NCBI RefSeq assembly: GCF_000612505.1
Contig: NZ_CP004078.1
Location: 4,596,001 to 4,660,000 of the forward strand
Direction: 5' to 3'
Length of the DNA: 64,000 bases
From: Paenibacillus sabinae T27
Lineage (GTDB): Bacteria; Bacillota; Bacilli; Paenibacillales; Paenibacillaceae
Below, one piece after another: positions 2,355-17,050 of this stretch; position 1 is the first letter of the stretch; every line of letters begins with the position of its first letter. Below the pieces are notes generated by a model. It was not told the origin of the DNA and ran no database searches. It saw nothing but the letters and a program-made list of their open reading frames with translations. The translations under genes and the position numbers were made by a program.

Positions 2355-2398
2355 AAAAAAAAGCCTCGCTGAAGGCCAAATTGGCTATCAGCGAGGCT
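2355..2398 (-). terminator. Rho-independent terminator of the catabolic operon
   Basis: An 11-bp perfect stem (AGCCTCGCTGA with TCAGCGAGGCT) is followed on the minus strand by a run of T. It lies just downstream of the last operon gene. A 13-bp tandem duplication (2409-2434) sits between it and the gene and spans the stop codon. Confidence 0.85.
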
Positions 2399-2425
2399 AT
2401 CTTGTCAGGCACTTACAGGGTGCAC

Positions 2426-3325
2426 TTACAGGGTGATGCCTGTCTGCTTCAAAGTGCGCGCGATATCCGCTCTGGCTTCTTCCCCCAGCGTGCGGAAAGG
2501 CGCCCGGACCGGTCCTGAAGACAGTCCGATGAGCTCCATCGCGGCTTTGACCATTGCGGGCTGTCCGTATTTGCGGGCCAGATCGCGGATCGGCTGCCAG
2601 CGGTAGTACCGCTCAATGGCACGGGCATTTTCGCCTTGCTGGAATTCGTTGTACAGCGCGACGAACTCGGAAGTCATGAAGTTGGCGTTCGTGGATGTGC
2701 AGCCGGGCAAGCCGGAGGCAAGTCCACCGAGGATGAGACCGTCCGAGCCGCACATGACCGAGATGTCCTTACCGGCGTAAGCGACGGTCCGCACCAGCGC
2801 ATGCAGATCGGTAGCGCCCTGCTTGACTCCGGCGACGTTGTCCAGCTTGGCCAGCTTGGCGATCTCCTCCGGTGACAGATGGACGCCGATGCTCGCGCTG
2901 TTGTAGATAAGAATCGGCAGCTCGGTCGATTCATTCAGCAGCTCGAAGTGATACAGAATATCCTGCGGACGGACCTCCGATACGTACGGAGGCGTCACCA
3001 TTACGCCGTCGGCGCCGGCCTGCTTGGCTGCATCCGCAAGCTCGATGGCTTCGCCGGTGCCGCTGGCTGCCGTGCAGCACAGCAGCGGAACCCGGCCGGC
3101 AACCGCGTCGGCGGCGGCGGTGAACAGCTGCTTCCGCTCATCGCTTGTCAGACTCGGGTATTCCGCGTATGTACCGCTGACGATAATGCCATGAGCGCCT
3201 GAGGCAATGAAGTGATCGATATTCCGCCGCAGCGCGGCCGGATCGAAAGCCAGCGTATCTGTCATCGGAGTGATGGACAGTACGTAAATTCCTTTAAGCT
3301 TATCTTTCAAGTCAGTTGTGGACAT
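2426..3325 (-). CDS. Dihydrodipicolinate synthase / N-acetylneuraminate lyase family aldolase
   Basis: A 299-residue class I aldolase of the DapA/NanA family. These TIM-barrel enzymes make or break C-C bonds next to pyruvate through a lysine Schiff base. The Schiff-base lysine is K168 (VAGVKQG) and the catalytic tyrosine Y141 (LIYNSA). The family loop GTTGE appears as GTYAE at residues 51-55, and YNxP has become YNSA, so it is unlikely to be the biosynthetic DapA. Being last in a ten-gene operon with an aminotransferase and two hydrolases, it probably cleaves or condenses a 2-oxo acid product. It could also act as a dehydratase, as some family members do. Confidence 0.85.
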   Translation of the reverse strand: MSTTDLKDKLKGIYVLSITPMTDTLAFDPAALRRNIDHFIASGAHGIIVSGTYAEYPSLTSDERKQLFTAAADAVAGRVPLLCCTAASGTGEAIELADAAKQAGADGVMVTPPYVSEVRPQDILYHFELLNESTELPILIYNSASIGVHLSPEEIAKLAKLDNVAGVKQGATDLHALVRTVAYAGKDISVMCGSDGLILGGLASGLPGCTSTNANFMTSEFVALYNEFQQGENARAIERYYRWQPIRDLARKYGQPAMVKAAMELIGLSSGPVRAPFRTLGEEARADIARTLKQTGITL

Positions 3326-3342
3326 GTTGTGGACTTCCTCCT

Positions 3343-4551
3343 TTATTTGCTCCCAAGAATCGATTCCATCGCCGCGATTCCGTTCTCCATCTCCTCACGG
3401 GAAACGGCGTAAGACAGGCGGATATGATACGGGCTGCCGAACCCGGTTCCCGGCATCACGGCAACCCCGGCCTTCGTCAGCAGAATATCCGCCAGGTCGT
3501 CGGCGGTGGAAATGGTCCGTCCCTCCAGGGTCTGGCCGCGCCAGGCGGAGGCGTCAACCCATACATAGAAGGCGCCGTCCGGCACGCTGCACTCCAGTCC
3601 TTTGATCCGGCGAACCCCTTCGACCAGAATGCCGCGGCGCGCCGCGTATTCCTCGCGGATGTCCGCAAGATCTTCCTGCGGGCCGTCAATGGCAGCCAGC
3701 GCCGCCTGCTGGGCGATGGATGACGGGTTGCTTGTCGTATGGGACTGCAGGCGAAGCATCGCCTCGGTGACCGCGGCCGGAGCGGCAGAGTAACCGATGC
3801 GCCAGCCGGTCATCCCGTACGACTTGGACACCGCGTTGATCACGACGGTCCGCTCCCGCATACCGGGAAACGACGCGATGCTCGTATATCCTTCCAGCTT
3901 GAACACAAACGCCGAATACACCTCATCGCTGATGACCCAAAGATCCCGCTGCCTGCAGAACTCGGCCAGCCTGGACAGCTCCTCCGCGCTGTAAACTGCG
4001 CCGGAAGGGTTGTTCGGCTGGTTGAGAATCAGCAGACGGGTCGAGTCGTTCACCAGAGGCGCAAGCGTCTCCGGCGTCACTTTATAACCGGAGGAAGCGC
4101 TGGTCTGAACGAAGACCGGCTTCGCGCCAGCGAATTTCACCTGCTCGGGGAACGACACCCAATACGGAATTGGAATCATTACTTCGTCTCCCGGCCGGCA
4201 TAGCGTGCAAATCGCATTGAACAAGGCATGCTTGCCGCCGACGGTGACTACAATGTCTCCGGGGTCGTAGCTAAGCCCCATATCCCGCTTAAGCGCCCGG
4301 CAGATCGCTTCGCGCAGAGGCAGGATGCCGCTCGTGTCGGTATATCCTGTGAAATTGTCTTGTATCGCCTGAATCGCGGACGCCTTGGCCCGGTCAGGCG
4401 TTGGAAAATCCGGCTGCCCGAGTCCCAAGCGGTACACGGTTCGGCCTTCCCGCTGGTACCTTGCCACTGTGGACTCCAGCAACGCAGTCGGAGAAGGCTG
4501 AACACGCTCTACCCAATCCGCCAACTGAACATGTTGGTTCAACAACGTCAA
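3343..4551 (-). CDS. PLP-dependent aminotransferase, class I
   Basis: A 402-residue fold-type I aminotransferase close to the aspartate/prephenate aminotransferase group. Visible motifs are GLGQPDFPTP (43-52), NQPNNPSG (177-184), SDEVY (208-212), the PLP lysine K243 in SKSYGMTGW, and the carboxylate-binding arginine R378 in IRLSYA. It is cytoplasmic. It begins 20 bp after the M20 gene and ends 17 bp before the aldolase, so the three are translated as neighbours. In this pathway it would turn the amino acid released by the hydrolases into a 2-oxo acid or aldehyde; substrate inferred only. Confidence 0.88.
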   Translation of the reverse strand: MTLLNQHVQLADWVERVQPSPTALLESTVARYQREGRTVYRLGLGQPDFPTPDRAKASAIQAIQDNFTGYTDTSGILPLREAICRALKRDMGLSYDPGDIVVTVGGKHALFNAICTLCRPGDEVMIPIPYWVSFPEQVKFAGAKPVFVQTSASSGYKVTPETLAPLVNDSTRLLILNQPNNPSGAVYSAEELSRLAEFCRQRDLWVISDEVYSAFVFKLEGYTSIASFPGMRERTVVINAVSKSYGMTGWRIGYSAAPAAVTEAMLRLQSHTTSNPSSIAQQAALAAIDGPQEDLADIREEYAARRGILVEGVRRIKGLECSVPDGAFYVWVDASAWRGQTLEGRTISTADDLADILLTKAGVAVMPGTGFGSPYHIRLSYAVSREEMENGIAAMESILGSK

Positions 4552-4571
4552 TCACCTCTTCTGTTTATCGG

Positions 4572-5747
4572 TTACGAGCCTGCGACTTCCATCGCAATGG
4601 AAGCGTAGACCCGTGCTGCATTATCCAGTTCGGACACGGTTACCCACTCGTCGATTTTGTGAGCCACACTGAAATCGCCCGGCCCGTAGATGACCGACGG
4701 AATTCCCCGTTTGACGAAGTGGGTCATGTCGCAATTGGCCGTAAGGCCCGTTAGCTCGGGGCTGCGTCCGTATACGCGTTCGATCGCCGCTGAAGCGAGC
4801 CCCACCATCGGATGATCGGGACGGGTCTCCGATGCCACCCCTGTTGTCGGAACGAGCCGGTCGATGTGGACCCGGCCGTCCAGCGCGGGAAGACCGGCGA
4901 TGATCTGCTCGATCTCCCGCAGCGCGTCTTCTTCCGCCTCGCCGGGAATGAGCCGGCGGTCGATCAGCGCCTCACAGCGGTCCGGAATCATCGATTCCTT
5001 GATTCCGCCCTTAATGACCGTGACGGACAGTGTCGACTGCCCCGTCAACGGATGAAGCCGCTTCGTCAGCTCCTCCTCGGCGAAGTCTTCAAGCGCCACA
5101 AGCGTCCGCGCCATCAGGGACACGGCGTTGACGCCGAGGTGAGGCGTTGACGAATGGGCCGATACCCCTTCGGCGACGAGCACGGGACGTATGCTGCCCC
5201 GGTGCGCGATCGCCAGGCTGCCGTTCGTCGCTTCACCGATCACCGCCAGGTCGCCGTGAAGATCGTCCGGCAGCCTGCGGGCTCCAAGGCTCGCCGCCTC
5301 TTCATCCACGACCGCCGCCAGCACGATATCCCCCGGCAGCTGCGCGCCGGAGGCGGCAATCGCTTCGACAGCGGCCATCATGGCGGCCAAAGGCCCCTTC
5401 GCATCCATGACGCCCCGGCCGTACACCCGGTCGCCTTTGCGGAGCATGCTGAACGGATCGGAACTCCAGCCGTCGCCGGCAGGAACGACATCCATATGCG
5501 TATTCAGAATAACGGTTCGTCCGCCGCCCGTGCCTTTCAGGCGGGCGATCACATTCGGCCGGCCCGGCTCGATCTCCTGAAGCTCGACCTCGCATCCCGC
5601 TTCCCGCATGATCTTGGCGACATATTCAGCCGCCTCTCCCTCCGTGCCGCTCGGGTTCACGCTCTGGAAGCGGATCAGGTCGGCCAGAAGTTCCAGGGTC
5701 CGTTCGGGGCGGATGACCGGCTCCACTGCGCGCAGGCCTTCGCTCAT
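4572..5747 (-). CDS. M20 family metallohydrolase (ArgE/DapE-like)
   Basis: A 391-residue zinc-dependent amidohydrolase of the ArgE/DapE/CPG2 group, which removes acyl or peptide groups from amino acids. Metal ligands and catalytic residues are visible: HMD at 84-86, D115 in GVMDAKG, the E149-E150 pair in VVDEEAAS, and a C-terminal histidine in the stretch SVAHKIDE. I chose the ATG at 5747 because it overlaps the stop of the SDR gene as ATGA (translational coupling); the longer frame starting at 5816 lies inside the SDR gene. It is probably the deacylation step of the pathway. Confidence 0.88.
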   Translation of the reverse strand: MSEGLRAVEPVIRPERTLELLADLIRFQSVNPSGTEGEAAEYVAKIMREAGCEVELQEIEPGRPNVIARLKGTGGGRTVILNTHMDVVPAGDGWSSDPFSMLRKGDRVYGRGVMDAKGPLAAMMAAVEAIAASGAQLPGDIVLAAVVDEEAASLGARRLPDDLHGDLAVIGEATNGSLAIAHRGSIRPVLVAEGVSAHSSTPHLGVNAVSLMARTLVALEDFAEEELTKRLHPLTGQSTLSVTVIKGGIKESMIPDRCEALIDRRLIPGEAEEDALREIEQIIAGLPALDGRVHIDRLVPTTGVASETRPDHPMVGLASAAIERVYGRSPELTGLTANCDMTHFVKRGIPSVIYGPGDFSVAHKIDEWVTVSELDNAARVYASIAMEVAGS

Positions 5748-6529
5748 AGCGATTTCACCATCCCGCCGTCCACGAGCAGCGTCTGGCCCGTGACATAGCT
5801 TGCACTGTCCGAGCACAGGAACGCCACCACGCGGGCAAACTCATCTGGCTGCCCGTAGCGCCCGAGCGGAATCTGCTTCTCGCTCTGCGCCTTGATCGCT
5901 TCCGGGGTAGCCCCTGCCTTGTCCGCCCGGATGCGGTCCAGGGAGCGGACCCGATCCGTATCGATCCGGCCCGGAGCCACTATATTGACCCGAATGCCGT
6001 ACGGGGCAAGCTCTTCCGCCAGCGTTTTGCTAAGTCCGGCCACGCCGGTCCGCATCACATTGGAGAGAGTCAGCCCTGGGATCGGCTGCTTGACCGAGGA
6101 TGAAGCTAGGTTAACGATCGCGCCGCCCTGCGCCTTCAAATGCGGAAGCGCATAGGAGACGAGGCGGACCACGCTCATCACGTTAAGCTCGTACGCATAC
6201 AGCCAGTCTTCTTCTTTCAGCGACTCGAAGTTCCCGGCGGGAGGACCGCCGGCGTTGGTAACCAGAACGTCCAGTCCGCCAAAAGCGGTGACGGTCTCTT
6301 CCACGCAGCGGGACAGGTCGGAAGCGGAGCAGACATCCGCCGCAAGCCCAAGCGCGGGCATTCCCGTTTCGGCGGTGATGTCCGCAGCCACGGCTTTAGC
6401 CTCTTCGCCGTTCCGGCTGAACAGCGCCACCTTCGCCCCGCCGCGTGCCAGCTCGAACGCCACGGCGCGGCCAAGGCCTTTGCTTGCCGCCGCTACGAGC
6501 GCGGTCTTTCCTGCGAATGATCCGCTCAT
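5744..6529 (-). CDS. SDR-family oxidoreductase with altered active site
   Basis: A 261-residue short-chain dehydrogenase/reductase. The NAD(P)-binding glycine motif is at 14-20 (AASKGLG), the NAG motif at 92-94 and the sheet-ending serines at 143-145. The classical YxxxK catalytic pair is replaced: the aligned stretch around residues 155-160 reads LSNVMR, with serine and arginine where tyrosine and lysine are expected. A group of FabG-like proteins shares this pattern, so it is not a local error, but the chemistry may differ from ordinary alcohol oxidation. Start and stop overlap both neighbours by 4 bp. Confidence 0.85.
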   Translation of the reverse strand: MSGSFAGKTALVAAASKGLGRAVAFELARGGAKVALFSRNGEEAKAVAADITAETGMPALGLAADVCSASDLSRCVEETVTAFGGLDVLVTNAGGPPAGNFESLKEEDWLYAYELNVMSVVRLVSYALPHLKAQGGAIVNLASSSVKQPIPGLTLSNVMRTGVAGLSKTLAEELAPYGIRVNIVAPGRIDTDRVRSLDRIRADKAGATPEAIKAQSEKQIPLGRYGQPDEFARVVAFLCSDSASYVTGQTLLVDGGMVKSL

Positions 6530-7701
6530 GCTTGTCCCCCCTTCGCTATCGTCAGCTCACGGGGCAGCTTGGTCAGCACTTCGCAGCCGGTCTCCGTCAC
6601 CAGAATCGTCTCGCTGAATCCGACGCCGTAGCGGTTCGGAACGCGAAGGGCCGGCGGAATGTGGAAGACCATGCCCGGCAGCAGCACGCGGTCATCGTCC
6701 CGCTGAAGGCTCATAATATGGCCTTCTCCCCAGTCCGGTGCAAAAGCAACGCCGATCGAGTAGCCGGTCCGTTTGCGGAACTGCTCATACAGTCCGGCAC
6801 GCTCGATCGTTCCCCGGCAGGCTTCGTCCACCTCTCCGGCGGTAACGCCCGGACGGATGACTTCGAGCGCGGCGTTCAAGGAAGCGATGCACACCTCGGT
6901 CACCCGCTTGATCTCATCGGTTGGCGTGCCGGTATAGGCAGCCCGCATCAGCGCGCCGTGGTACCGGTTGCGGGCCCCTGCCACTTCCAGCAGAAGCGTC
7001 TCCCCGTCGCCGATCACCTTATGCCCCCATGCGGCATGCATGTTGCCCGAACGGTAGCCGGAGGAAATAAACGGCTCCATCCCCAAATACTCGCCCCCAG
7101 ACCTAATCATGGCGGAGAACATGGCCGCGGCAGCCTCGTCTTCATTCACTCCCGCCCGGATCGCGTCAAGCCCTGCCTGCATCGAGCTGTCGGCCACGGC
7201 GCAGGCTTCGCGGATGTACGCAATTTCCGCCGGAGATTTGATGACCCGGAACGCTTCAACCGTCCCTTGGGCATCCATGAGCCGGAAATCGCCAAGCATT
7301 TTCTCAAACTTCTGGTAGTTCCGGACAGGCAGGAACCAGGAGCCCGTCTCCAGGCCAATCGCACCGGGAGCGATGCCGATCTCTCTGACTGTATCCGCGG
7401 TCAATGCAACCGGGTCATTCGTGTCGTCATAGGTTCTGACCTGGCTTTCAGGCAGCCAACTGTAGGTTTGAACATTGGACAGCTCGCCCCGCCGGAGCAC
7501 AAGCACCGGATCGCCGAAAGCCGGCACGACCAGGCATTGGTACATATAATAGCCCGGGCTCTGATAGCCGGTCAGATAAAAAATATTTTCAGGGGTGTGA
7601 ATCAGCATGCCGCTGAGCCCCTTGAGTTCAAGCTCGCGTTGTACATTTTGCAGGCGGGAATCAAATTCATCCCTGGAAAATACCAATGATGTGGCGCTCA
7701 A
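6526..7701 (-). CDS. M24-fold hydrolase resembling ectoine hydrolase DoeA
   Basis: A 391-residue protein with the creatinase-type N-terminal domain (about 1-150) and the pita-bread M24 domain (about 155-385). The C-terminal signature RTGYSIG (311-317), PDWGE (322-326) and PGMVFH (342-347) matches what I recall of DoeA/EutD ectoine hydrolases rather than Xaa-Pro peptidases. Most M24 metal ligands are absent: LLLEVAG replaces the usual D-containing strand, GYSIG replaces GHGIG, and HIPPAL replaces TIEPG, so it is probably not a two-metal peptidase. It may open a cyclic amidine or cleave a related C-N bond. Ectoine itself is not proven; the rest of the operon differs from known ectoine clusters. 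Confidence 0.75.
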   Translation of the reverse strand: MSATSLVFSRDEFDSRLQNVQRELELKGLSGMLIHTPENIFYLTGYQSPGYYMYQCLVVPAFGDPVLVLRRGELSNVQTYSWLPESQVRTYDDTNDPVALTADTVREIGIAPGAIGLETGSWFLPVRNYQKFEKMLGDFRLMDAQGTVEAFRVIKSPAEIAYIREACAVADSSMQAGLDAIRAGVNEDEAAAAMFSAMIRSGGEYLGMEPFISSGYRSGNMHAAWGHKVIGDGETLLLEVAGARNRYHGALMRAAYTGTPTDEIKRVTEVCIASLNAALEVIRPGVTAGEVDEACRGTIERAGLYEQFRKRTGYSIGVAFAPDWGEGHIMSLQRDDDRVLLPGMVFHIPPALRVPNRYGVGFSETILVTETGCEVLTKLPRELTIAKGGQA

Positions 7702-7734
7702 TATCGTCTACCCCTTTCCCTGAACTCATCGTTG

Positions 7735-8535
7735 TCAAGCCTGATAGCCGTAAGTATCCATTCTTAAATCTCTTAAATAGGGTGTTAGCTTGGAGCATTC
7801 GTCCGCTTCATCCAGATCGATCTCCAGCACCTGCATGTCTTCTTCACTCAGATTGCCGCTGACGATGAGCTCGCCCTTCGGATTCGCCAGCTTGTTGTTG
7901 CCGAACAGCCGCAGACTGCCGCCCACGCCGTTGATGCCAGCCACAAAGCAGGTATTTTCAAGCGCCCTTGCCGGATAATAAATATCCCATCTGTGCTTGT
8001 CTTCCAGTGAAAAAGCGGACGGCGTGACGATCAGCTTCGCCCCTTGCAGAGCTAGAGTACGCGCGGCCTCCGGGAAACCAGCATCGTAACAAATCAGGAC
8101 GCCGAGCTTGCCGAAATCAAGTTCATACGGAGAACAAACGTCCCCGGGTTTAAAAAACTTCCTCTCATCCTCCCACAGATGAACCTTGCTGTACGTACCC
8201 GCGAGTTCTCCGTTTCGCCTAATAATAACGGCGCCATTGGCGGTCCCGCCCTCGTCCAGCTTTAGGGCCATCCCAAGCACGATGTTAATGTTATGCGTCT
8301 GTGCAGCTTCGCGGAATGCCCGAACCGTCGAACCGCCTGTGTCCTCGGCCAGCTCATGATAGCGGTCGCCGATCACGTCGGTATTATATCCAGTGATGCA
8401 CAGTTCCGGGAACACGATCAGATCGGCCCCCTGCCGCGATGCCTGCTCAACGAACTCCAGGCCTTTGCGGACATTCGCGGCGATGTCCATCAGCGCGCTT
8501 TCGAACTGCACCAGCGCCAGTTTAACCGTCGCCAA
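7735..8535 (-). CDS. Carbon-nitrogen hydrolase (nitrilase superfamily)
   Basis: A 266-residue cytoplasmic hydrolase of the nitrilase superfamily, amidase or N-carbamoyl-amino-acid hydrolase type. The catalytic triad is clear: E44 (VFPELCITGY), K117 (YSKVHLW) and C149 (LICYDAGFPE). I take the TTG at 8535 as start because an AAGGAGGGG ribosome site lies just upstream and the protein then opens with ATVKLALVQ as family members do; the longer frame to 8688 overlaps the ABC ATPase gene. In the operon it would hydrolyse an amide, nitrile or carbamoyl group of the imported compound. Confidence 0.88.
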   Translation of the reverse strand: MATVKLALVQFESALMDIAANVRKGLEFVEQASRQGADLIVFPELCITGYNTDVIGDRYHELAEDTGGSTVRAFREAAQTHNINIVLGMALKLDEGGTANGAVIIRRNGELAGTYSKVHLWEDERKFFKPGDVCSPYELDFGKLGVLICYDAGFPEAARTLALQGAKLIVTPSAFSLEDKHRWDIYYPARALENTCFVAGINGVGGSLRLFGNNKLANPKGELIVSGNLSEEDMQVLEIDLDEADECSKLTPYLRDLRMDTYGYQA

Positions 8536-8574
8536 GCGTTTCCCCTCCTTACGATTCATTCCTGGTTCAATTAA

Positions 8575-8592
8575 AGGCTGACACTTCAGCCT
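8575..8592 (-). other. Intercistronic hairpin
   Basis: A 7-bp perfect stem (AGGCTGA with TCAGCCT, 4-nt loop) lies between the ABC ATPase and nitrilase genes, with a short T-rich stretch after it. It may reduce readthrough or mark an mRNA processing point. Confidence 0.4.
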
Positions 8593-8602
8593 CATGTTAT
8601 GT

Positions 8603-9319
8603 TCAGTACTGTGTAATCTGGTTAAGGAATTGCATAAGACGGGGATGCTTGCCGGCTTGTTCGAGCTGCGAAGAAGGCAGATCTTCAACCACCTGTCCCT
8701 GGTCCATAAAAATAATGCGGTCGCCTACCCGGCGCGCGAATTCCATTTCATGCGTAACGATGACGACGGTCATGCCGTCCTTGGCCAAATCCGAGATAAC
8801 GTCCAGAACCTCGGCCGTCATCTCGGGATCAAGCGCCGAGGTGGGCTCGTCGAACAGCATCAGCTTCGGATTCATGGCAAGCGCCCGCGCAATGGCGATG
8901 CGCTGCTGCTGCCCTCCGGACAGCTGCTCGGGATAATGCTCTGCCCGGTCTTTCAAACGTACCCGTTCCAGCAGTTGAATCGCGCGCGAGCGAACTTCCT
9001 GCTCTTTTTCGCCGCGCACCACCTTCGGAGCCAGCATAATATTCTGAATCGCGTTCAGATGCTGGAACAGATCAAACGATTGAAAGACCATGCCGATTTC
9101 CGCTCTTGCATGCCGCGATCCGTTAACGTCCTGTCCGTTGTACCGAATCTGTCCGCCGTCGATGGGCTCAAGTCCCGCCATGCATCGCAGCAGCGTAGAC
9201 TTGCCGGAACCGGAAGGTCCGATAATAACCACCCGCTCGCCCTCTTGAATATTGAGTGAGACCTCTTTCAGGATCGGATCGTCATGATATTGCTTGAACA
9301 CCCGCTCGATTTGCAGCAC
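8603..9319 (-). CDS. Polar amino acid ABC importer, ATPase subunit
   Basis: A 238-residue ATP-binding protein of the GlnQ/HisP type that powers amino-acid uptake. Walker A GPSGSGKST is at 34-42, the signature LSGGQQQR at 133-140 and Walker B ending DEPT at 157-160, all intact and at the usual spacing. It follows its permease gene by 28 bp. With the permease and lipoprotein it forms a complete importer; homodimers of this subunit should bind a homodimeric permease because only one permease gene is present. Confidence 0.93.
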   Translation of the reverse strand: MLQIERVFKQYHDDPILKEVSLNIQEGERVVIIGPSGSGKSTLLRCMAGLEPIDGGQIRYNGQDVNGSRHARAEIGMVFQSFDLFQHLNAIQNIMLAPKVVRGEKEQEVRSRAIQLLERVRLKDRAEHYPEQLSGGQQQRIAIARALAMNPKLMLFDEPTSALDPEMTAEVLDVISDLAKDGMTVVIVTHEMEFARRVGDRIIFMDQGQVVEDLPSSQLEQAGKHPRLMQFLNQITQY

Positions 9320-9347
9320 AGTGTCCGACCTCCTTCCATTATCAGGC

Positions 9348-10064
9348 TTATAGAATTGACTTTCCGCGCTTCATCAGCGAGAACAATGGGGATTTGCGTT
9401 TTCGGGAACGGGTTATATCCATCCGCCGCTCCAGGTAAGATTGGATGAACGTGAACAGCGCCGTAAAGACAAGGTAATAAATGACGGCCGCGATCAGCGT
9501 GTCCACATAATCAAAGTTGGCGCTGGCCGTCTGCTGAGCAGTCAGCAGCAGATCGGTGTAGCCAACGACCGAGGCCATCGCCGAGGTCTTCAGCATGCCG
9601 ATGAACTGGTTGGCGGTCGGCGGCACGATAACCCGAAACGCCTGGGGAAGAACAACGTAGCGCATCCGCTGCCAGCTGTTCATGCCGAGGGCATTGGCGG
9701 CGCGATGCTGCCCTTTGCCCACTGACGCCAGGCCGGACCGCACAATTTCCGCCATGTAGGCCGCCTCGTTCAGCGCGAGCGCGACGAACGCTGACTGGAA
9801 CCCGGTCAGCCTGATTCCGAACTGGGGCAGCGCCGTGTACACAAAGATCAGCTGCACAAGCACCGGAATCCCGCGAAAAATCCAGATATACGAAGCCGCG
9901 AATCCCTGCAGCAGTTTCCATTTTGACATTTTGGCAAGTGCAATGATAAATCCAAGCAAGACGGCGACAATCTGCGACACCAGCGTGAGCTTCATTGTAT
10001 TTATGGCTCCGTCCAGAAAAGCCCGGGAACCGAGATAAGCCCAAACGCCTTCAACAAATTCCAT
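9348..10064 (-). CDS. Polar amino acid ABC importer, permease subunit
   Basis: A 238-residue inner-membrane protein of the HisM/GlnP family with about five membrane segments. The EAA loop that docks the ATPase is visible as EAAYMAEIVRSGLASVGKGQ (about 98-117). Only one permease is encoded, so the channel is probably a homodimer, unlike the two-permease ectoine importer Ehu. A long hairpin separates it from the binding-protein gene upstream. Confidence 0.93.
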   Translation of the reverse strand: MEFVEGVWAYLGSRAFLDGAINTMKLTLVSQIVAVLLGFIIALAKMSKWKLLQGFAASYIWIFRGIPVLVQLIFVYTALPQFGIRLTGFQSAFVALALNEAAYMAEIVRSGLASVGKGQHRAANALGMNSWQRMRYVVLPQAFRVIVPPTANQFIGMLKTSAMASVVGYTDLLLTAQQTASANFDYVDTLIAAVIYYLVFTALFTFIQSYLERRMDITRSRKRKSPLFSLMKRGKSIL

Positions 10065-10088
10065 GTTAGAACCTCCTTATTACAGCAT

Positions 10089-10136
10089 CCGCCGGATTCG
10101 GACGAGAAAGTGATGCATCTGACGCGAATCCGGCGG
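10089..10136 (-). other. Long intercistronic hairpin after the binding-protein gene
   Basis: A perfect 12-bp stem (CCGCCGGATTCG with CGAATCCGGCGG) with a 24-nt loop lies between the binding-protein and permease genes. No T-run follows. Such hairpins commonly protect the upstream message from 3' decay and raise binding-protein levels over permease levels; that role is inferred here. Confidence 0.6.
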
Positions 10137-10159
10137 CTGTTTATGCAGAGTGCTATTGA

Positions 10160-11035
10160 TTACTTGAAATAACTCATTTCAGCCGGCAGATGGTATTTCT
10201 CCATCAATTGCTTGTAGGTACCGTTCTCAACGACTTTCTTAAGCGCGGTCTCGATCGCCGTCTTCGTTTCCGTATCGCCCTTGCGAACGGCAATTCCGAT
10301 CTTCGTATCCGCGCCGAAGGAGCCCGCGATTTCAAATACGCCCGGTTTCTCCTCTTGCAGATATGCGGCTCCCGGAGAAGAGTGGAGGAATGCGTCGGCA
10401 CGGCCCTGTTCGGTTGCAAGAACGGCGTCGTTGGCCGTCGGGAGCGCCAAAATTTTAATTTCCGGCTTACCGGCCTGCTTCAGCTTAACGTTATGTTCGC
10501 GAACGTTGATTTCCTCGACAGCACCGCGTGTAACGGCGACCGTGAGATTGGACAGATCATCCATGCTTTTGACGCCTTTCGGATTGCCGCTCTTCACAAC
10601 GATGGAGTCAGCCAGTCCCATGTAAGGAATGAAGTCTACTTGCTCTTCCCGTTCGGGCTTGATATACATGGCGGAATTGATGATGTCGATCCGCTTGCCC
10701 TGCAGCGCCGGAATCAGTCCGTCGAAGTTCATCGACTGGATTTTGACCTCTACGCCCATTTCCTTGGCAATCGCTTGTCCCAGTTCAATGTCGAAGCCGG
10801 TGAATTCATTGTTCACCATGTACTCGAATGGAGGAAACGTAGCGGCCGTGCCATAGGTCAGGAACCCTTTTTCAACCAAAAAAGATGGAGCTGCGGCTGC
10901 GGTTTCCTGCGGCTTGCTGCTTCCGGCCGGGGACGAAGCCTGCCCTCCGTTTGCGCTGTTTGTTCCACATGCGCTCAATACAGCAGCTACCAATACCAAC
11001 ATTGCACAAACCAGCATCTTGGTGTTCTTCATCAT
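10160..11035 (-). CDS. Polar amino acid ABC importer, substrate-binding lipoprotein
   Basis: A 291-residue secreted binding protein anchored as a lipoprotein. The signal peptide ends in the lipobox LSAC followed by a Gly/Ser-rich linker and then a type 2 periplasmic-binding fold of the amino-acid family (YGTAATFPPFEYMVNNEFTG, then FDIELGQAIAKEMG). The ATG at 11035 has a GGAGAGG site 8 bp upstream that overlaps the end of the GntR gene. It captures the substrate outside the cell; the ligand cannot be named, but the fold binds amino acids and small zwitterions including ectoine. Confidence 0.92.
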   Translation of the reverse strand: MMKNTKMLVCAMLVLVAAVLSACGTNSANGGQASSPAGSSKPQETAAAAPSFLVEKGFLTYGTAATFPPFEYMVNNEFTGFDIELGQAIAKEMGVEVKIQSMNFDGLIPALQGKRIDIINSAMYIKPEREEQVDFIPYMGLADSIVVKSGNPKGVKSMDDLSNLTVAVTRGAVEEINVREHNVKLKQAGKPEIKILALPTANDAVLATEQGRADAFLHSSPGAAYLQEEKPGVFEIAGSFGADTKIGIAVRKGDTETKTAIETALKKVVENGTYKQLMEKYHLPAEMSYFK

Positions 11036-11040
11036 CACGT

Positions 11041-11721
11041 TTACCTCTCCTCGCTGTTCTCGTTATTTTGCATGACACTTAGTACGACTTTCTGGGTCTT
11101 CCGATTGTGTTCAACCAGGAAACGGCTCGCTTCCTCCGCTTCCTTGCGGGTCATCAGCTCCACCAGATGGCGGTGCTCGTTAAGAGAACCGTCAACCATT
11201 CCGGGCTGAATTAAAAGAATACGGCGGTAACGCTCGCTCTGCTCCCATAGCCGTTCAATGATCGACATCAGTACCGGACGCTGCGCGAGACCGTAAATGA
11301 ACATATGAAACTCACGGTTGGCGGCCAGGATCGCTTCGGTATCGAGACTCTCTTGATACGCAAGCTCCTCCTGTTTCTGAATCATGCCGTTAAGAAGAGT
11401 GACATCCTCCGGCGTAAGCTGCTCAGTCGCAAGCTGCACAGCCAATCCTTCCAAATTGCAGCGCACCAGATAAATATCTTCGAGATGCTGCGCCGACAGC
11501 GGGGTAACCGTTACGCCCCTGTGCGAATGCAGCAGCACCAGATCCTGGGCCGCCAGCTTGTCCAAAGCGCTGCGAACCGGCATTTTGCTCACCCCGAGGC
11601 GGGCGGCGACGGCGTCTTGGTCGATTTTCTCACCAGGAGCCAATTCGCCGGATAACACCCACTGCTTGAGAACGGAGTATACATGCTCCGACGCGGTGAC
11701 AAAGGTTGGAATTCTACTCAA
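11041..11721 (-). CDS. GntR-family regulator, FCD type
   Basis: A 226-residue transcription factor with an N-terminal winged helix (about 12-75, including DAVAARLGVSKMPVRSALDK) and a C-terminal all-helical FCD ligand domain with metal-type histidines (REFHMFIYG and NEHRHLVELM). It is the first gene of the catabolic operon and faces the enolase-superfamily gene. Two identical palindromes, one in front of each divergent gene, are its likely operators, giving autoregulation and substrate-relieved repression of the whole locus. Confidence 0.9.
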   Translation of the reverse strand: MSRIPTFVTASEHVYSVLKQWVLSGELAPGEKIDQDAVAARLGVSKMPVRSALDKLAAQDLVLLHSHRGVTVTPLSAQHLEDIYLVRCNLEGLAVQLATEQLTPEDVTLLNGMIQKQEELAYQESLDTEAILAANREFHMFIYGLAQRPVLMSIIERLWEQSERYRRILLIQPGMVDGSLNEHRHLVELMTRKEAEEASRFLVEHNRKTQKVVLSVMQNNENSEER

Positions 11722-11756
11722 TCATTCAGCATCTCCTTTCTAAAATTCCAAGATCG

Positions 11757-11774
11757 GATATTTGATCAAATATC
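11757..11774. promoter_or_regulatory. GntR operator palindrome, operon side
   Basis: A perfect 18-bp palindrome, GATATTTGATCAAATATC, lies downstream of the operon promoter and upstream of the regulator start, a roadblock position. The identical sequence recurs at 11963-11980. Confidence 0.8.
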
Positions 11775-11785
11775 AACGATCAATG

Positions 11786-11814
11786 ATTACCTGTGACATA
11801 GGTCACATTGTAAA
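11786..11814 (-). promoter_or_regulatory. Operon promoter enclosing a CRP/Fnr-like box
   Basis: On the minus strand TTTACA (11809-11814) and GGTAAT (11786-11791) are separated by 17 bp. The spacer is almost entirely filled by the perfect inverted repeat TGTGACATAGGTCACA (11792-11807), which fits the TGTGA-N6-TCACA recognition sequence of CRP/Fnr-family regulators. A protein bound there would repress this promoter. Confidence 0.6.
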
Positions 11815-11926
11815 GGGTGTTTCGACAAACTGTCAATAAAAATATCTCAAATTGTTAATATATCTGTCATGTCGTCGAAATATCTTCCATAGAGTCGAAA
11901 AAATAAAAGTTTTGTCGATTTTTTTG

Positions 11927-11980
11927 TTGCTAATCGCACTTTTGTGTGACTATAATTACTGTGATATTTGATCAAATATC
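11927..11980 (+). promoter_or_regulatory. Promoter of the enolase-superfamily gene with GntR operator
   Basis: TTGCTA (11927-11932), an 18-bp spacer and TATAAT (11951-11956) form a sigma-A promoter. The palindrome GATATTTGATCAAATATC (11963-11980) begins 6 bp after the -10 box and covers the expected transcription start, a classic repressor position. Confidence 0.75.
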
Positions 11981-12075
11981 AATTTTCTATCTAATTCCGC
12001 ATCAAAATCTTCAAATTACGTTAGATTTAGTAACATCACTTTCTTCGCTACCGAATGAAAAACGAGGTGTCAGCT

Positions 12076-13209
12076 ATGCTTATTTCCCAAATCGATGTAT
12101 TCAGATGCGACCTTCCGCTCTCTCCGCCGTTCACTCATTCTTCTTCCGGAACCGTCACTCACCTGAAAGAAATCTACCTGCGGATTACGGCCGATTCCGG
12201 TGTCAGCGGCTGGAGCGAAGTTCGCGGCAACTGTGAATATGTCACCGGCGACACGCCCGAAAGGGTGGCCGCCGTTCTTACGCATACACTAGGCCCCGCA
12301 CTGCTCGGAAAGCCCGTGATGAACAGAAATAGGATCAACGCCCAGCTCGACAGGCTGATTAACGGAAACAGCGCGGCCCGCGCCGCCGTGGATATTGCCC
12401 TGCTTGATCTTATGGGCAAGGAGTTGAAAGTGTCTGTCGCCGAGGTTTTGGGAGGAAGGATGCGGGATTCCATCCCGAGCGACGCCACCATCGCCTTCGG
12501 CACGCCGGATGAAGCCGAAGAGGAAGCGGCCCGGTATTTGCAGGCCGGCTTCCGGACTATCAAGGTGAGAGTCGGCCCGGACCGGGCCGCTGATCTTGAA
12601 CGGGTGCGGCGGGCCAGAGCCGTTATTGACTCGTTCGGGCTGGGCGGAGAAGTTCTTCTGTGTGTCGATGCCAATCAGGGGTGGACGCCCAAGCAAGCGG
12701 CCCTTCGCCTGAGGGAACTCGAAGCGCTCGGTGTAGAATGGGTGGAGCAGCCCGTGCCTGCTGACGACTTCTCCGGTCTGAAACAGGTCCGGCAGCAGAC
12801 ACGGGCCGCTGTCGTGGCCGACGAGAGCTGCCGCACGTGCGCAGATGTCGCCCGGATTGCCGCCGAGGGTGCGGCCGATATTGTTCACTTGAAGCTTGTA
12901 AAGGCGGGATCGGTATCCAATCTGCTGCGGATGATGGCGGTCGCCGAATCCTTCGGCATCCCGTATATGCTCGGGCAGATGGACGAGGGGCGGCTGGCTA
13001 CCGCCGCTCTGCTGCAAATCGCGGCGGCATCGCGCGCCAGCCATTTTGAAGTATGGGGATTCCAGCGGGTCCGCCCCGAAGACGATCCCGCTAGTACGCT
13101 TACAGTATCGAACGGAGCCGTATCCGTTCCCGAAGGCCCCGGACTGGGAGTCACCGTCGATGAATCCCGCTTGACCCTGATTGCCAGCCTGTCCGCAGAC
13201 GCAATATAA
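12076..13209 (+). CDS. Enolase-superfamily enzyme, muconate-lactonizing-enzyme subgroup
   Basis: A 377-residue enzyme with the enolase N-terminal capping domain and C-terminal barrel. Metal ligands are visible in CVDANQG, WVEQPV and VADESC, and the sixth-strand lysine in HLKLVKAG. The second-strand acid/base motif, normally KxK, reads IKVRV, so its second lysine is arginine. Members of the subgroup racemise or epimerise amino-acid derivatives, cycloisomerise or dehydrate. I chose the ATG at 12076, which has a GAGGTG site, over the in-frame ATG at 12055. It is divergent from the catabolic operon and shares its operator, so it should act on the same substrate, perhaps converting stereoisomers. 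Confidence 0.85.
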   Translation: MLISQIDVFRCDLPLSPPFTHSSSGTVTHLKEIYLRITADSGVSGWSEVRGNCEYVTGDTPERVAAVLTHTLGPALLGKPVMNRNRINAQLDRLINGNSAARAAVDIALLDLMGKELKVSVAEVLGGRMRDSIPSDATIAFGTPDEAEEEAARYLQAGFRTIKVRVGPDRAADLERVRRARAVIDSFGLGGEVLLCVDANQGWTPKQAALRLRELEALGVEWVEQPVPADDFSGLKQVRQQTRAAVVADESCRTCADVARIAAEGAADIVHLKLVKAGSVSNLLRMMAVAESFGIPYMLGQMDEGRLATAALLQIAAASRASHFEVWGFQRVRPEDDPASTLTVSNGAVSVPEGPGLGVTVDESRLTLIASLSADAI

Positions 13210-13246
13210 ACAGCCTCTTGAATCGCGAATATACTTATAGAAGCAA

Positions 13247-13287
13247 AACAGCAAGCCTCCGAATGACCGGAAGCTTGCTGTTTTTTT
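13247..13287 (+). terminator. Terminator of the enolase-superfamily gene
   Basis: Stem AACAGCAAGC with GCTTGCTGTT, followed by seven T. The element is nearly identical to the one at 17133-17167. Confidence 0.85.
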
Positions 13288-13441
13288 ATAATAACTATTC
13301 CCCCCACAAGCCAACACACCAGGCAACAGGAAAATTATGCATCTATCCGAAGCTACGGGCGTATTCAATGATATACCTTTAACTGAAATCATAGCCCTAA
13401 ATATTGGAAGTAAGGTATCCTATATAAAGGAGGTGCGTCTT

Positions 13442-14185
13442 TTGAACAGCTCAAGACTTATGAAGCTGCTGGGGCTTATTGCCGGAGTTGCAGTCCTGGA
13501 TATTGTAATTCTGTCTCCGGGTTTAGCAGGGGTGGAAATCGGCGGTGAAAGTGCTCTGGAGACAGCTTCGGGAGTAACCCTACTGGTTATTAGTCTCCTT
13601 GTGCTGCTGTACGGGAGTTATGCTTTACTGTTTAAACCTCCTGTTCTGACACCTGTGAAAAACATGAAAACGCATGAGGACTATATAACAGCGCTTAACC
13701 ATTACAGAAATGCAAATGTGTTAAAGAAGGATATTTCTCTCTCGCTGGATCAGCTTGACCGGCTGGAGAAGAAGAAAACCACCTTATTGGACGTCCTCAG
13801 CCAAAGATTTGATCCGGCGGAGCTAAGCTACAAGAAGTTTCACTCTGTCATTGATGAAGTCGGGCAGCTTTTTTACCTGAATATCAAGGGAATCCTGAAT
13901 AAGCTCAGTGTATTCGATGCTTCAGAGCTCTCCGCTTTCACCAGCGAGCAGAAGCTCGCGCAGTTTTCCAATAAACTGGTTCAGGAAAAAACCGCTCTGC
14001 ACAACGAGTACTTGACCTCCGTAGCGGGATACCTTGGCGCAAATGAAGAAATTCTGCTGAAGCTAGACAAGCTGCTGCTGGAAATCTCCCAATTGGACAG
14101 CATGGATTATCAAAATATTGAGGATATGCCGTGCATGCAGGAAATGGATGCATTGATCAAGCAGACGAAGTTCTATAAGCAATGA
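13442..14185 (+). CDS. Two-TM membrane protein with helical cytoplasmic domain, first gene of a VWA-TelA cassette
   Basis: A 247-residue protein with two N-terminal membrane segments (about 7-25 and 45-66) and then a long, mostly helical, charged region (about 75-247) likely to form coiled coils (SLDQLDRLEKKKTTLLDVL). I place the start at the TTG at 13442 because a full AAGGAGGTG site lies just upstream; the ATG at 13337 has no such site. Its position before a TelA-family gene recalls XpaC, which adjoins a TelA homologue in Bacillus, but I do not claim homology. It probably anchors the complex to the membrane. The next gene starts 13 bp after its stop. Confidence 0.75.
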   Translation: MNSSRLMKLLGLIAGVAVLDIVILSPGLAGVEIGGESALETASGVTLLVISLLVLLYGSYALLFKPPVLTPVKNMKTHEDYITALNHYRNANVLKKDISLSLDQLDRLEKKKTTLLDVLSQRFDPAELSYKKFHSVIDEVGQLFYLNIKGILNKLSVFDASELSAFTSEQKLAQFSNKLVQEKTALHNEYLTSVAGYLGANEEILLKLDKLLLEISQLDSMDYQNIEDMPCMQEMDALIKQTKFYKQ

Positions 14186-14198
14186 GAGGGAGATGAGC

Positions 14199-15887
14199 AT
14201 GGCTGGAAAAAGTAAAGCGTTTGTGGTGTTGGGAGTTATCGCAGTGGCTGTTTTTGCTCTTGTATATTTCGGGATCAGTTTAACCTCCAATTTAGGTAAA
14301 AGCCAGACACAGGTAACCGCGGAAGACGCGACCAAGCAGCTGGATAAACTGTACAAAAGCATTTCTGTAACTTCCGCGGAACCGGTAAAGGGTCAGATCG
14401 ACCTTGATCCTGCATCTGTCGGCGACTCCTTGCCCGATATCTCCAAATTCCCTATTTCCGTAGCCAATACAACGGACAGTTTCATTGAAATTTTCTCTTC
14501 TACGGAGAAGTCAGGAACCGGCGTAGACGGGTGGTTGAACGAAGTAGCGACAGACTTCAACAATTCCAATTTTATGGTGAATGGGAAACCGGTCTCGGTC
14601 AAGATCCGCAATATTGCCTCGGGAACAGCCGCAGATTATATAAAGTCGGGCAAGTATGTGCCGGATGCCTTCACACCTTCCAATGAGCTGTGGGGCGAAA
14701 TGGTCAAAGCGCAAGGCATCCCCATTCAGCTTGTATCGAAGCGTCTTACCGGGAATGTAGCCGGTATTGTAACAACCAAGAAAAAGTATGACGAGCTCGT
14801 GGATAAATACGGCTCCTTGAATATCAAGACGGTTACAGACGCTATTGCCAATAACGAGCTGGCTATGGGGTATACCGATCCTTTCGCCAGTTCCACCGGC
14901 CTCAACTTTCTGGTGACCGCCCTTCAGACGTTTGACAGCTCGGATTTACTAGGGGATAAGGCGGTTCAAGGGTTTGAGAAATTCCAGGCCAATGTCCCTT
15001 TCACCGCGTCTACAACTTTGCAAATGCGTGACGCGGCCAAGTCGGGAATGCTTGACGCTTTTGTCCTGGAGTACCAAACGTATGTCAATGCGCCGGATCT
15101 GAAGAGCGGCTACGTATTCACTCCTTTTGGCGTAAGGCATGACAGTCCGCTGTATGCTTTGGGCAATTTACCTCAAGATAAGCTGGACATTATCAAGAAG
15201 TTTGCGGAGTTCGCCGAGCAGGATAAGTATCAGAAATCAGCTGCGGACAAAGGGTTCAATGGTCTGCCGGATTACCACTCCGAGCTTAACGCGGTTGACG
15301 GTACCCTTCTCTCCTCCGCCCAGAAGCTGTGGAAGGAAAAGAAGAACGGGAATAAGCCGATCGCAGCGGTATTTGTGGCCGATGTATCCGGAAGTATGGA
15401 TGGTGAGCCTCTCAACCGGTTAAGAGAGTCGTTATTAAAAGGTCAAAAGTACCTCGGCAGGGACAACAGCATTGGGTTGGTTTCTTACTCCAGTGAAGTG
15501 TCCATCAATCTTCCGATTGGGAAATACGACGCGAATCAGCAGTCTATGTTTGTGGGAGCCGTTAACAGCCTGCAGGCTGGCGGCGGTACAGCTACTTTTG
15601 ACGGAATTGTGGTGGCCATGAAAATGCTTCAAGATGAGCTAACGGCTCACCCTGATGTTAAACCCGTAATCTTTGTCTTAAGCGACGGGGAAACGAATGA
15701 AGGGCATTCGCTCGATGAAATCAGAGGGTTAATTGAAACCTATAAAATCCCGGTATACACGATTGGCTATAATGCGAACATCCAGGCGCTGCAAAGCATT
15801 TCAAGTATCAACGAGGCGGCCAGCATCAACGCGGATACGGACGATGTTGTGTATAAGATCGGTAATTTGCTCAACGTGCAAATGTGA
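14199..15887 (+). CDS. Membrane-anchored substrate-binding-like domain fused to a VWA domain
   Basis: A 562-residue protein: one N-terminal membrane segment (about 7-27), a linker, a type 2 periplasmic-binding-like domain (about 88-350; motifs such as SGTAADYIKSGKYVPDAFTP), and a C-terminal von Willebrand factor A domain (about 386-562). The metal-ion-dependent adhesion site is intact: D395-x-S397-x-S399 in DVSGSMDG, a threonine in GGGTATFDG and D496 in LSDGETN. The topology puts both domains outside the cell if the segment is an uncleaved signal anchor. The ATG at 14199 suits the GAGGGAG site better than the ATG two codons earlier. A metal-dependent protein contact sensitive to a bound ligand is inferred. 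Confidence 0.85.
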   Translation: MAGKSKAFVVLGVIAVAVFALVYFGISLTSNLGKSQTQVTAEDATKQLDKLYKSISVTSAEPVKGQIDLDPASVGDSLPDISKFPISVANTTDSFIEIFSSTEKSGTGVDGWLNEVATDFNNSNFMVNGKPVSVKIRNIASGTAADYIKSGKYVPDAFTPSNELWGEMVKAQGIPIQLVSKRLTGNVAGIVTTKKKYDELVDKYGSLNIKTVTDAIANNELAMGYTDPFASSTGLNFLVTALQTFDSSDLLGDKAVQGFEKFQANVPFTASTTLQMRDAAKSGMLDAFVLEYQTYVNAPDLKSGYVFTPFGVRHDSPLYALGNLPQDKLDIIKKFAEFAEQDKYQKSAADKGFNGLPDYHSELNAVDGTLLSSAQKLWKEKKNGNKPIAAVFVADVSGSMDGEPLNRLRESLLKGQKYLGRDNSIGLVSYSSEVSINLPIGKYDANQQSMFVGAVNSLQAGGGTATFDGIVVAMKMLQDELTAHPDVKPVIFVLSDGETNEGHSLDEIRGLIETYKIPVYTIGYNANIQALQSISSINEAASINADTDDVVYKIGNLLNVQM

Positions 15888-15910
15888 TTTCTATTTTAGG
15901 AGGGGTTACC

Positions 15911-17050
15911 ATGGCATTTACAATGGAAGTCGTCAATCCGGAGAAGATTAAGTCGGCAATTGAAGAGCAGGTTAAGCCTGTGCCCGAGGAAGTAGCCCAG
16001 CTAAAGGAGCTGGCGGTAAACAATGTCTCCACGATCCTGGAGCTGGATGTCGATTCACTGGAGAAGCGGAAAGAGATCCTGCAATCGATCGATCAATTCG
16101 GTATGAATACGATGCGGTCCTCGTCGGAGAAAAATGCACTTTTGCAGGTGTCTGTGGGGAATCTGTCCAGAACGGGCGATGAAGGCGGCCAAGTCGCCAA
16201 AGGGCTGACCGAGCTTCAGCTTCAGTTGAAGGATTTGGACCCGAGTGTGGTGGATTTTGCGAAGAGCGGTTTCCTGGGCAAGTTCTTTAACCCGCTGCGC
16301 AGCTACTTTGCCAAGTATCAGAAGGCGGATGCCGTTATTTCGGATATTATTACTTCTTTAGATAAAGGCAAATCTGTATTAAAAAACGATAATACGACTT
16401 TGGAATTTGAACAGCAGGCGCTGCGGGAGCTCACCAAAAAGCTGCAAAAGGAAATCCAGCTTGGCATGCTGATGGATGAAGAAATCGAATCTCAGATTGA
16501 GGCGGCAAAATCACGCAATGAGTCGGAGGATAAAATCCGGTTCATCACTGAAGAAGTGCTGTTTCCGCTGCGTCAGCGCGTGATGGATTTACAGCAAATG
16601 CAGGTAGTCAATCAACAGGGAATTATGGCGATTGAAGTCGTCATCCGAAATAACAAAGAGCTGATCCGCGGGGTGGACAGAGCCCGAAATGTAACGATCT
16701 CCGCCCTCAAAATCTCCGTTACCGTGGCCAGTGCGCTCTACAATCAACGGATCGTCTTGAAAAAGATTGAGCTGCTAAATCAAACTACCAACGATCTGAT
16801 AAGCGGCACCTCCAAAATGCTGAAAGATCAAGGCGCGGCGATCCATAAGCAGTCTCTGGAAACGAGTATTTCGGTAGATACGTTAAAACAGGCTTTCACT
16901 GACGTACTGTCGGCTCTGGATTCCATCAGCACTTACAAGCAGGAGGCCCTCCCCAAAATGCGTGACACCATTAATCAGTTCAGAGAGCTGGCGGATACCG
17001 GAGAGCAGCAAATACAGCGCTTGGAGAAGGGACAGAAGCTGGGGCTGTAG
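15911..17050 (+). CDS. TelA-like (toxic anion resistance) protein
   Basis: A 379-residue, almost wholly helical protein of the TelA/KlaA family, known from tellurite-resistance and stress loci. Recognisable pieces are the N-terminal LDVDSLEKRKEILQSIDQFG, the central SGFLGKFFNPLRSYFAKYQK, the paired helices LQQMQVVNQQGIMAIEVVIR, and NVTISALKISVTVASAL. It is cytoplasmic with no membrane segment. The ATG at 15911 has an AGGAGGGG site; the frame open from 15884 is not needed. It closes the three-gene cassette and is followed by a terminator. The molecular activity of the family is not settled. Confidence 0.88.
   Translation: MAFTMEVVNPEKIKSAIEEQVKPVPEEVAQLKELAVNNVSTILELDVDSLEKRKEILQSIDQFGMNTMRSSSEKNALLQVSVGNLSRTGDEGGQVAKGLTELQLQLKDLDPSVVDFAKSGFLGKFFNPLRSYFAKYQKADAVISDIITSLDKGKSVLKNDNTTLEFEQQALRELTKKLQKEIQLGMLMDEEIESQIEAAKSRNESEDKIRFITEEVLFPLRQRVMDLQQMQVVNQQGIMAIEVVIRNNKELIRGVDRARNVTISALKISVTVASALYNQRIVLKKIELLNQTTNDLISGTSKMLKDQGAAIHKQSLETSISVDTLKQAFTDVLSALDSISTYKQEALPKMRDTINQFRELADTGEQQIQRLEKGQKLGL

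Follow-up and report, generated by a model that had tools for sequence, protein, structure and literature searches.

Gene content and layout of the locus

The window analyzed in this work is a stretch of 64,000 nucleotides from Paenibacillus sabinae T27, whose surrounding genome consists of a single contig of 5.27 Mb; coordinates given without a locus number are positions in this window. Between positions 2426 and 13209, it carries eleven open genes, of which ten form a minus-strand operon and the eleventh, coding for an enolase-superfamily enzyme of the muconate lactonizing enzyme (MLE) type, is transcribed divergently. The original prediction, made from the sequence alone, described this region as a regulated catabolic locus built around a DoeA-like hydrolase of the M24 family. 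Reading frames and searches with NCBIfam and Pfam profiles located all the genes that it had named, about where it had placed them, and bore out the picture of one regulated, catabolic-looking locus with a GntR-family protein as the putative repressor. The genes, in the order of the operon and followed by the divergent gene, are as follows.

11041..11721, minus strand: GntR/FCD-family regulator (Pfam)
10160..11038, minus strand: substrate-binding protein, lipoprotein-like (Pfam, alignment, predicted fold)
9348..10064, minus strand: permease of an ATP-binding cassette (ABC) importer, single (reading frame and profile)
8603..9319, minus strand: ABC importer ATPase, GlnQ type (profile search)
7735..8535, minus strand: nitrilase-superfamily amidase with an intact Glu-Lys-Cys triad (Pfam, alignment)
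6526..7701, minus strand: M24 creatinase/DoeA-fold hydrolase (profiles, motifs, fold, tree)
5744..6529, minus strand: protein of the short-chain dehydrogenase/reductase (SDR) fold with SNxxR instead of YxxxK (profiles, aligned SDRs)
4572..5747, minus strand: M20 deacylase of the ArgE/DapE family with metal ligands (TIGR01910 score)
3343..4551, minus strand: class I aminotransferase, aspartate aminotransferase-like (profile search, conserved residues)
2426..3325, minus strand: Schiff-base lyase of the DapA/NanA family (GTYxE loop, Lys168, Tyr141)
12055..13209, plus strand: enolase-superfamily (MLE subgroup) enzyme with KxR for KxK (profiles, alignment)

The respective profile families are GntR/FCD, SBP_bac_3, a single HEQRo-type permease, GlnQ-type ATPase, CN_hydrolase, creatinase_N plus M24, SDR, M20, class I aminotransferase, DHDPS, and MR_MLE. 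The M24 and SDR genes overlap by four bases. The M20 gene most likely starts at the ATG at 5747, within an ATGA shared with the SDR stop codon, and the start of the nitrilase gene is most likely to be shifted to the TTG at 8535, which is preceded by GGAGGGG.

Recurrence of the gene set in other genomes

An alignment of six M24 proteins was used as the query against one genome per species (84,980 species), the scan covering those proteins that contain one of two peptide patterns. Of the 225 relatives obtained, the best 80 were kept as genome loci, and five plasmid loci, taken from the top matches and not independent, brought the total to 85. Genes of these loci (designated by L numbers) were labeled by their best BLASTP match, with at least 110 bits and at least 60% coverage, to the genes of the window and of loci L019 to L022, anywhere in the fetched stretch. 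At least five of the six core genes, those for the binding protein, permease, ATPase, M20, MLE, and M24 proteins, are found in 62 of the 85 loci, which comprise 57 of the 80 genome loci and all five plasmid loci (60 of 85 and 55 of 80 without L048 and L081, whose transporter labels come from a neighboring two-permease system). The neighborhood search proposed in the original prediction thus found these genes together rather than scattered. Among the 62 loci, the DapA-like gene is present in 52, the aminotransferase in 50, a glutamine amidotransferase (GATase) in 47, and the nitrilase in 8. Together with L091, these loci display 31 gene orders, counted as label strings; for some of these, the only difference is a label that is absent or stray, or a contig end.

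The hosts include Bacillota (Paenibacillus, Cohnella, and Liquorilactobacillus mali) and many families of Pseudomonadota, with such genera as Pantoea, Acinetobacter, Pseudomonas, Acetobacter, Shinella, and Mesorhizobium; further loci are on Agrobacterium plasmids, and a variant of the cluster is found on plasmid At of A. fabrum C58. Several of these bacteria we take to be plant or soil dwellers, and the plasmid records also list skin, wound, and water as sources. Among the matches listed, the closest named relative of the M24 protein, with 98% identity, is from Paenibacillus zanthoxyli. Chloroflexota as a third phylum was rejected: the locus L047, from an Anaerolineae metagenome-assembled genome (MAG), is almost identical in the tree to L055, from an alphaproteobacterial MAG, so that one of the two MAGs is probably wrongly binned.

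Within individual groups, the cluster is rare. Matches were found in 13 of 394 genomes from the family of the window (its own included, and one merely a 41% relative) and in 1 of 301 genomes from the family of L. mali, this being the query genome itself. In two samples of proteobacterial classes, with E values of 1e-110 or better, the counts were 1 of 369 (again the query genome) and 6 of 385 (query genome included). Of four loci fetched from the latter sample, L124, L125, and L126 carry all six core genes and L127 only the M20 and M24 genes; L125 and L127 are not independent of L055 and L085. A 3301-base Phytobacter stretch that was matched against E. coli genomes was found in none of them.

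As for the five genes that flank the cluster in the window, any of them is present, among the 85 fetched stretches, only in the close relative L024. For most of the cluster proteins, the pairwise distances rise and fall in parallel, a comparison that is uncontrolled for the relatedness of the species. This recurrence, the restriction of the flanking genes to L024, and the parallel distances provide strong evidence that the gene set moves and is retained as a unit serving one pathway. A chance neighborhood was rejected on the basis of the linkage of the core genes, their varied orders, and the comparison of the flanks.

Several loci show other arrangements. In L048 (1-4977), L063 (about 240-2892), and L081 (about 3137-7651), the cluster adjoins a second amino-acid-type ABC transporter, which in L048 and L081 has two permeases, and all three loci encode two M24 proteins that are ∼31% identical to the cluster M24; these extra genes perhaps represent a further, paralogous pathway. 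A sister group of M24-M20 pairs (L035, 790-1596; L039; L053) has no labeled MLE gene and lies near EutA-like genes of the Asp/Glu racemase family, recognized in L035 by TIGR02990 (182.5 versus a cutoff of 318) and in L039 and L053 by BLAST family only; this group is possibly a third pathway of such a kind. The gut MAG “Heteroruminococcus” (L034, 6066-12023) has, in a row, genes for M20, MLE, a sodium/solute symporter, M24, and a PuuD-like peptidase of the C26 family, which is the same core with another transporter and amidase.

The M24 protein and ectoine hydrolase

The predicted fold of the M24 protein is that of ectoine hydrolase (EutD/DoeA), and the M24 subgroup shares 59 invariant positions with four true EutD proteins; which of these positions are catalytic we assign by assumption. 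The GYSIG..PDWGE and RYH motifs are also found in EutD. The otherwise invariant Glu364 of the M24 protein, as well as Glu176 of the binding protein, differs in L. mali (L032). Comparison with the four EutD proteins also revealed 48 fixed differences, including eight gaps and Arg353 in place of Trp. Further, the M24 protein scores far below both curated cutoffs for ectoine hydrolases (315.1 versus 575 for NF038259 and 218.5 versus 613 for TIGR02993) and branches apart from them in a quick tree, and 4 of 14 genomes encode a true EutD in addition to it. The identification as ectoine hydrolase itself was rejected on these four grounds. The protein probably works like ectoine hydrolase, yet is not one, much as the original prediction of a DoeA-like but distinct hydrolase had it.

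The EutD-like fold and conserved positions would also be expected if this were a variant cluster for the degradation of ectoine or 5-hydroxyectoine, with the M24 protein as ectoine hydrolase and the M20 deacylase replacing EutE. The amidohydrolase encoded by abgB is presumably of the M20 type. In 2026, ectoine clusters that contain abgB and two eutD genes were proposed for Gram-positive bacteria in the form pucR-eutBCD-atf / abgB-thrA-adh / eutD, and their authors call them tentative (PMC13188858). Like the window, they combine M24, amidohydrolase, and aminotransferase genes in Bacillota; eutB, eutC, thrA, adh, and pucR are absent from the window cluster, and that section mentions no MLE, DapA-like, nitrilase, or SDR genes (PMC13188858). 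The families of the eleven window genes include neither eutB, eutC, thrA, nor aldehyde dehydrogenase, nor the AstE-like deacetylase of the EutE type. The canonical route (EutD/DoeA and EutE/DoeB, with the EhuABCD importer) resembles the window cluster in its binding-protein-dependent ABC uptake, in the pairing of an M24 hydrolase with a deacylase, and in the aminotransferase downstream. However, the M24 protein here forms a separate lineage, the deacylase is M20 rather than AstE-like, there is one permease, the regulator is GntR/FCD rather than EnuR, and an amidase, an MLE, an SDR, and a DapA-like protein are added; the replacement of the ectoine-type deacylase and importer had been noticed in the original prediction. 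With the profile scores, the fixed differences, and the coexisting EutD also against it, degradation of ectoine is improbable.

In the public annotation, the M24 protein is an Xaa-Pro peptidase family protein, which would make this a locus for the utilization of dipeptides or Xaa-Pro peptides, with a true peptidase at its center. Both the motifs common to this protein and EutD and the residues Glu239 and His248, which seem, on our assumption, to occupy the positions of metal-binding Asp residues in metallopeptidases, speak against such a role, and we regard it as very improbable.

Importer and binding protein

The single-permease importer does not reach the cutoffs of the Ehu models (scores versus cutoffs: EhuA, 254.2/345.4; EhuB, 102.7/190.9; EhuC, 159.7/196.95; EhuD, 143/205.2). 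The predicted fold of the binding protein (pLDDT, 85.5) is that of polar amino acid binders. Its carboxylate-binding Arg is retained in 58 of 58 sequences, and the position of the Asp that binds the alpha-amino group is occupied by Ser in 57 of the 58; the roles and numbering of both residues are presumed from GlnBP and LAO. This combination suggests a ligand that probably has a carboxylate and no free alpha-ammonium group, which agrees with the N-acyl or cyclic amino acid-like substrate envisaged in the original prediction.

Such a locus might instead serve to detoxify or scavenge an antimetabolite or an opine-like conjugate and not to support growth on a nutrient. This is unlikely, given that an importer and an apparently complete set of downstream carbon enzymes are typical of catabolism and that ordinary amino acid binders score equally high or higher.

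The MLE-type enzyme and the M20 deacylase

The M20 protein scores 280.4 bits with TIGR01910 (cutoff, 217.6) and has its metal ligands in 63 of 63 sequences. Similarly, the three metal ligands and Lys280 of the MLE-type enzyme are conserved in all 63, and in all 63 the second Lys of the KxK motif, which is present in five aligned structures, including an epimerase, is replaced by Arg. The KxR motif makes a two-base racemase unlikely and points to chemistry with a single base, for example an elimination or isomerization; the racemization step of the original prediction was dropped for this reason.

Operons that combine an N-succinylamino acid racemase/o-succinylbenzoate synthase (NSAR/OSBS) or a dipeptide epimerase with an M20 protein are a known type, and the window resembles them in that an MLE-subgroup enzyme adjoins M20. 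A locus of this kind would convert N-acyl-D-amino acids to the L forms, the MLE-type enzyme acting as N-acylamino acid racemase and the M20 protein as a stereospecific deacylase. By sequence, the nearest solved structure is indeed that of an L-Ala-D/L-Glu epimerase (1jpm; E, 1.5e-61), and the MLE gene adjoins M20 in most proteobacterial clusters (they are apart in L038, L041, and L052). However, only a single catalytic base of the required two is left, no acyltransferase is among the eleven genes, many more enzymes are present than in such operons, and the M24, amidase, and DapA-like proteins would be left without a role. We consider a D-to-L route improbable as well.

Amidases, aminotransferase, lyase, and SDR-fold protein

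The nitrilase is replaced in most proteobacterial clusters by a CTP synthase-like GATase, and the two are never found together in the 62 loci; their catalytic triads are intact in 9 of 9 and 47 of 47 sequences, respectively. In L034, the amidase candidate is the PuuD-like peptidase. The mutual exclusion of the first two, and the fact that all three families attack carboxamides, suggests a single amide-hydrolysis step. In L. mali, the nitrilase is encoded in two overlapping frames (L032, 5195-5994), by either a break or a sequencing error.

For the aminotransferase, the two best models are aspartate transaminases, both below their cutoffs. Ser20, Thr22, Lys107, the pyridoxal phosphate (PLP)-binding Lys243, and Arg378 are conserved in 51 of 51 sequences. 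Ser20, Thr22, and Lys107 we take to be the binders of the distal carboxylate in the Thermus aspartate aminotransferase, so that the substrate is likely to be an acidic amino acid or the amide of one.

In the DapA-like protein, Lys168, Tyr141, Tyr53, and Glu55 are retained in 53 of 53 sequences and Thr52 in 52 of them; its score with TIGR00674 (4-hydroxy-tetrahydrodipicolinate synthase) is below the cutoff (178.1 versus 206.15). Lys168 and Tyr141 match the Lys196/Tyr168-type Schiff-base center of 4-hydroxy-2-oxoglutarate aldolase, and the combination of an aspartate aminotransferase-like transaminase with a DapA-family lyase is shared with the end of the hydroxyproline route, as far as that is described in PMC3188589. 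However, the residues Asn78 and Ser198, given there as the substrate residues of the human aldolase, correspond by motif position in our own alignment to Tyr53 and Gly170. The aldol cleavage proposed in the original prediction is possible but conjectural: the Schiff-base Lys and Tyr are in place, and neither of the human substrate residues is present. Because of this mismatch, 4-hydroxyglutamate, which had been considered as the released amino acid on account of the transaminase, the lyase, and a glyoxylate reductase-like gene, was rejected.

The DapA-like gene (52 loci) and a pair of VOC-family and GhrA-like genes (6 loci, among them plasmid At of A. fabrum C58) do not occur in the same locus, which suggests that they are alternative ways of handling one 2-oxo acid. 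A gene of the fumarylacetoacetate hydrolase family is present in L021 (17470-18171, after the SDR gene), L056, L084, and L088, and its product possibly acts on a 2,4-dioxo acid.

The altered catalytic residues of the SDR-fold protein, pointed out in the original prediction, are real: SNxxR replaces YxxxK in 45 of 47 aligned proteins, including that of the window, so that the classical motif is missing. The two exceptions (L046 and L069) appear to be unrelated SDRs that were wrongly labeled.

Candidate operators and promoters

The gap of 333 bases between the GntR and MLE genes contains the perfect 18-base palindrome GATATTTGATCAAATATC twice, along with two sigma-70-like promoters.

11757..11774, no strand: palindrome GATATTTGATCAAATATC, operon-side copy, candidate operator
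11807..11836, minus strand: promoter TTGACA-18-TACAAT for the operon (11 of 12 matches)
11927..11956, plus strand: promoter TTGCTA-18-TATAAT for the MLE gene (10 of 12 matches)
11963..11980, no strand: palindrome GATATTTGATCAAATATC, MLE-side copy, candidate operator

In its 20-base form with up to 3 mismatches, the palindrome is found only at these two sites in the entire 5.27-Mb genome; shuffled versions of the window had 0.03 matches on average. One copy sits after the predicted −10 element of the MLE gene and the other downstream of the predicted operon promoter. The GntR-side palindrome could be recognized by eye in 8 of 9 aligned gaps (the window and eight Bacillota relatives), the copy in L028 being degenerate. 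This arrangement would allow a dedicated local repressor, putatively the GntR-family protein, to control both transcripts.

Proposed pathway

From the gene content and conserved residues, we infer the following steps and their order. The compound would be taken up by the binding protein and the ABC importer, and the MLE-type enzyme, with its single catalytic Lys, may rearrange it or eliminate a group from it. The DoeA-like M24 protein, probably metal free, would then open a ring or amidine by hydrolysis of a C-N bond, as EutD does with ectoine, and so yield an N-acyl amino acid. The M20 protein could remove the acyl group, as EutE does, and a side chain carboxamide would be removed by the nitrilase or, in most proteobacterial clusters, by the GATase. 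The aspartate aminotransferase-like enzyme would produce a 2-oxo acid, to be cleaved by the DapA-like lyase, with the help of the SDR-fold protein, probably to pyruvate.

The cluster is best described as a new form of catabolic pathway of the hydrolase-deacylase type. We see about an even chance that it constitutes a self-contained, locally repressed pathway for the import and degradation of a single small compound that has a carboxylate and an alpha-nitrogen blocked by an acyl group or a ring; the compound is perhaps plant derived. A more specific proposal is tentative: that this is a new pathway for a widespread, N-blocked (cyclic amidine or N-acyl), perhaps plant-derived amino acid derivative, in which a relative of ectoine hydrolase with changed specificity opens the molecule and the one-Lys enolase-superfamily enzyme and the Tyr-less SDR each perform chemistry undescribed for their families. 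In supposing a pathway that resembles the ectoine route yet differs from it, the original prediction appears largely right, and its interpretation as a whole is partly supported.

Several observations weigh against this reading. The agreement of distances is poorer for the SDR (0.71 to 0.80), ATPase (0.60 to 0.82), and GATase (0.60 to 0.90), and the M24 proteins from clusters do not form a single clade, their label requiring 5 changes on the quick tree (mean for shuffled labels, 22.9). The model is poor in the loop that contains the PDWGE motif (pLDDT below 50 at 311-319 and 321-324), the altered active site of the SDR-fold protein makes its step in the scheme a tentative one, and the substrate residues of the human aldolase differ in the DapA-like protein, as described above. 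The mutually exclusive genes partly follow lineage, with the nitrilase only in Bacillota, so that common descent could also explain them. By label, 7 of the 62 loci have neither amidase (among them are L032, with its nitrilase in two frames, and L038 and L082, which stop soon after M24), and 5 of the 62 have neither DapA nor VOC genes. In L091 (4800-7346), VOC, GhrA-like, and PLP-dependent dehydratase genes form one minus-strand group opposite M20-MLE-M24; the dehydratase, with 307.8 bits to threo-3-hydroxyaspartate ammonia-lyase (cutoff, 452), fits poorly, in this company, into a simple transamination scheme.

Given that unrelated bacteria keep together a set that reaches from a transporter to central metabolism, the target compound must be common enough to repay the genes. 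No named pathway for the eleven-gene set was found in the open-access papers searched. The single binding protein and the candidate operator offer a direct way to find this compound, and the KxR and SNxxR motifs are conserved even though they break the catalytic rules of two well-studied superfamilies.

Neighboring genes and other features

Past the last gene of the operon, the consensus scan found one of 12 terminator-like sites in the region, which are equally frequent in shuffled sequences (mean, 12.6).

2362..2377, minus strand: terminator-like hairpin and T-run

The adjacent genes are outside the pathway. On one side (1038-2149) are a TetR-like gene, judged by its sequence alone, and a SnoaL-like gene, identified by a profile. 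On the other, three consecutive plus-strand genes occupy positions 13337-17050, and one of them, likewise by sequence alone, looks like a von Willebrand-type protein.

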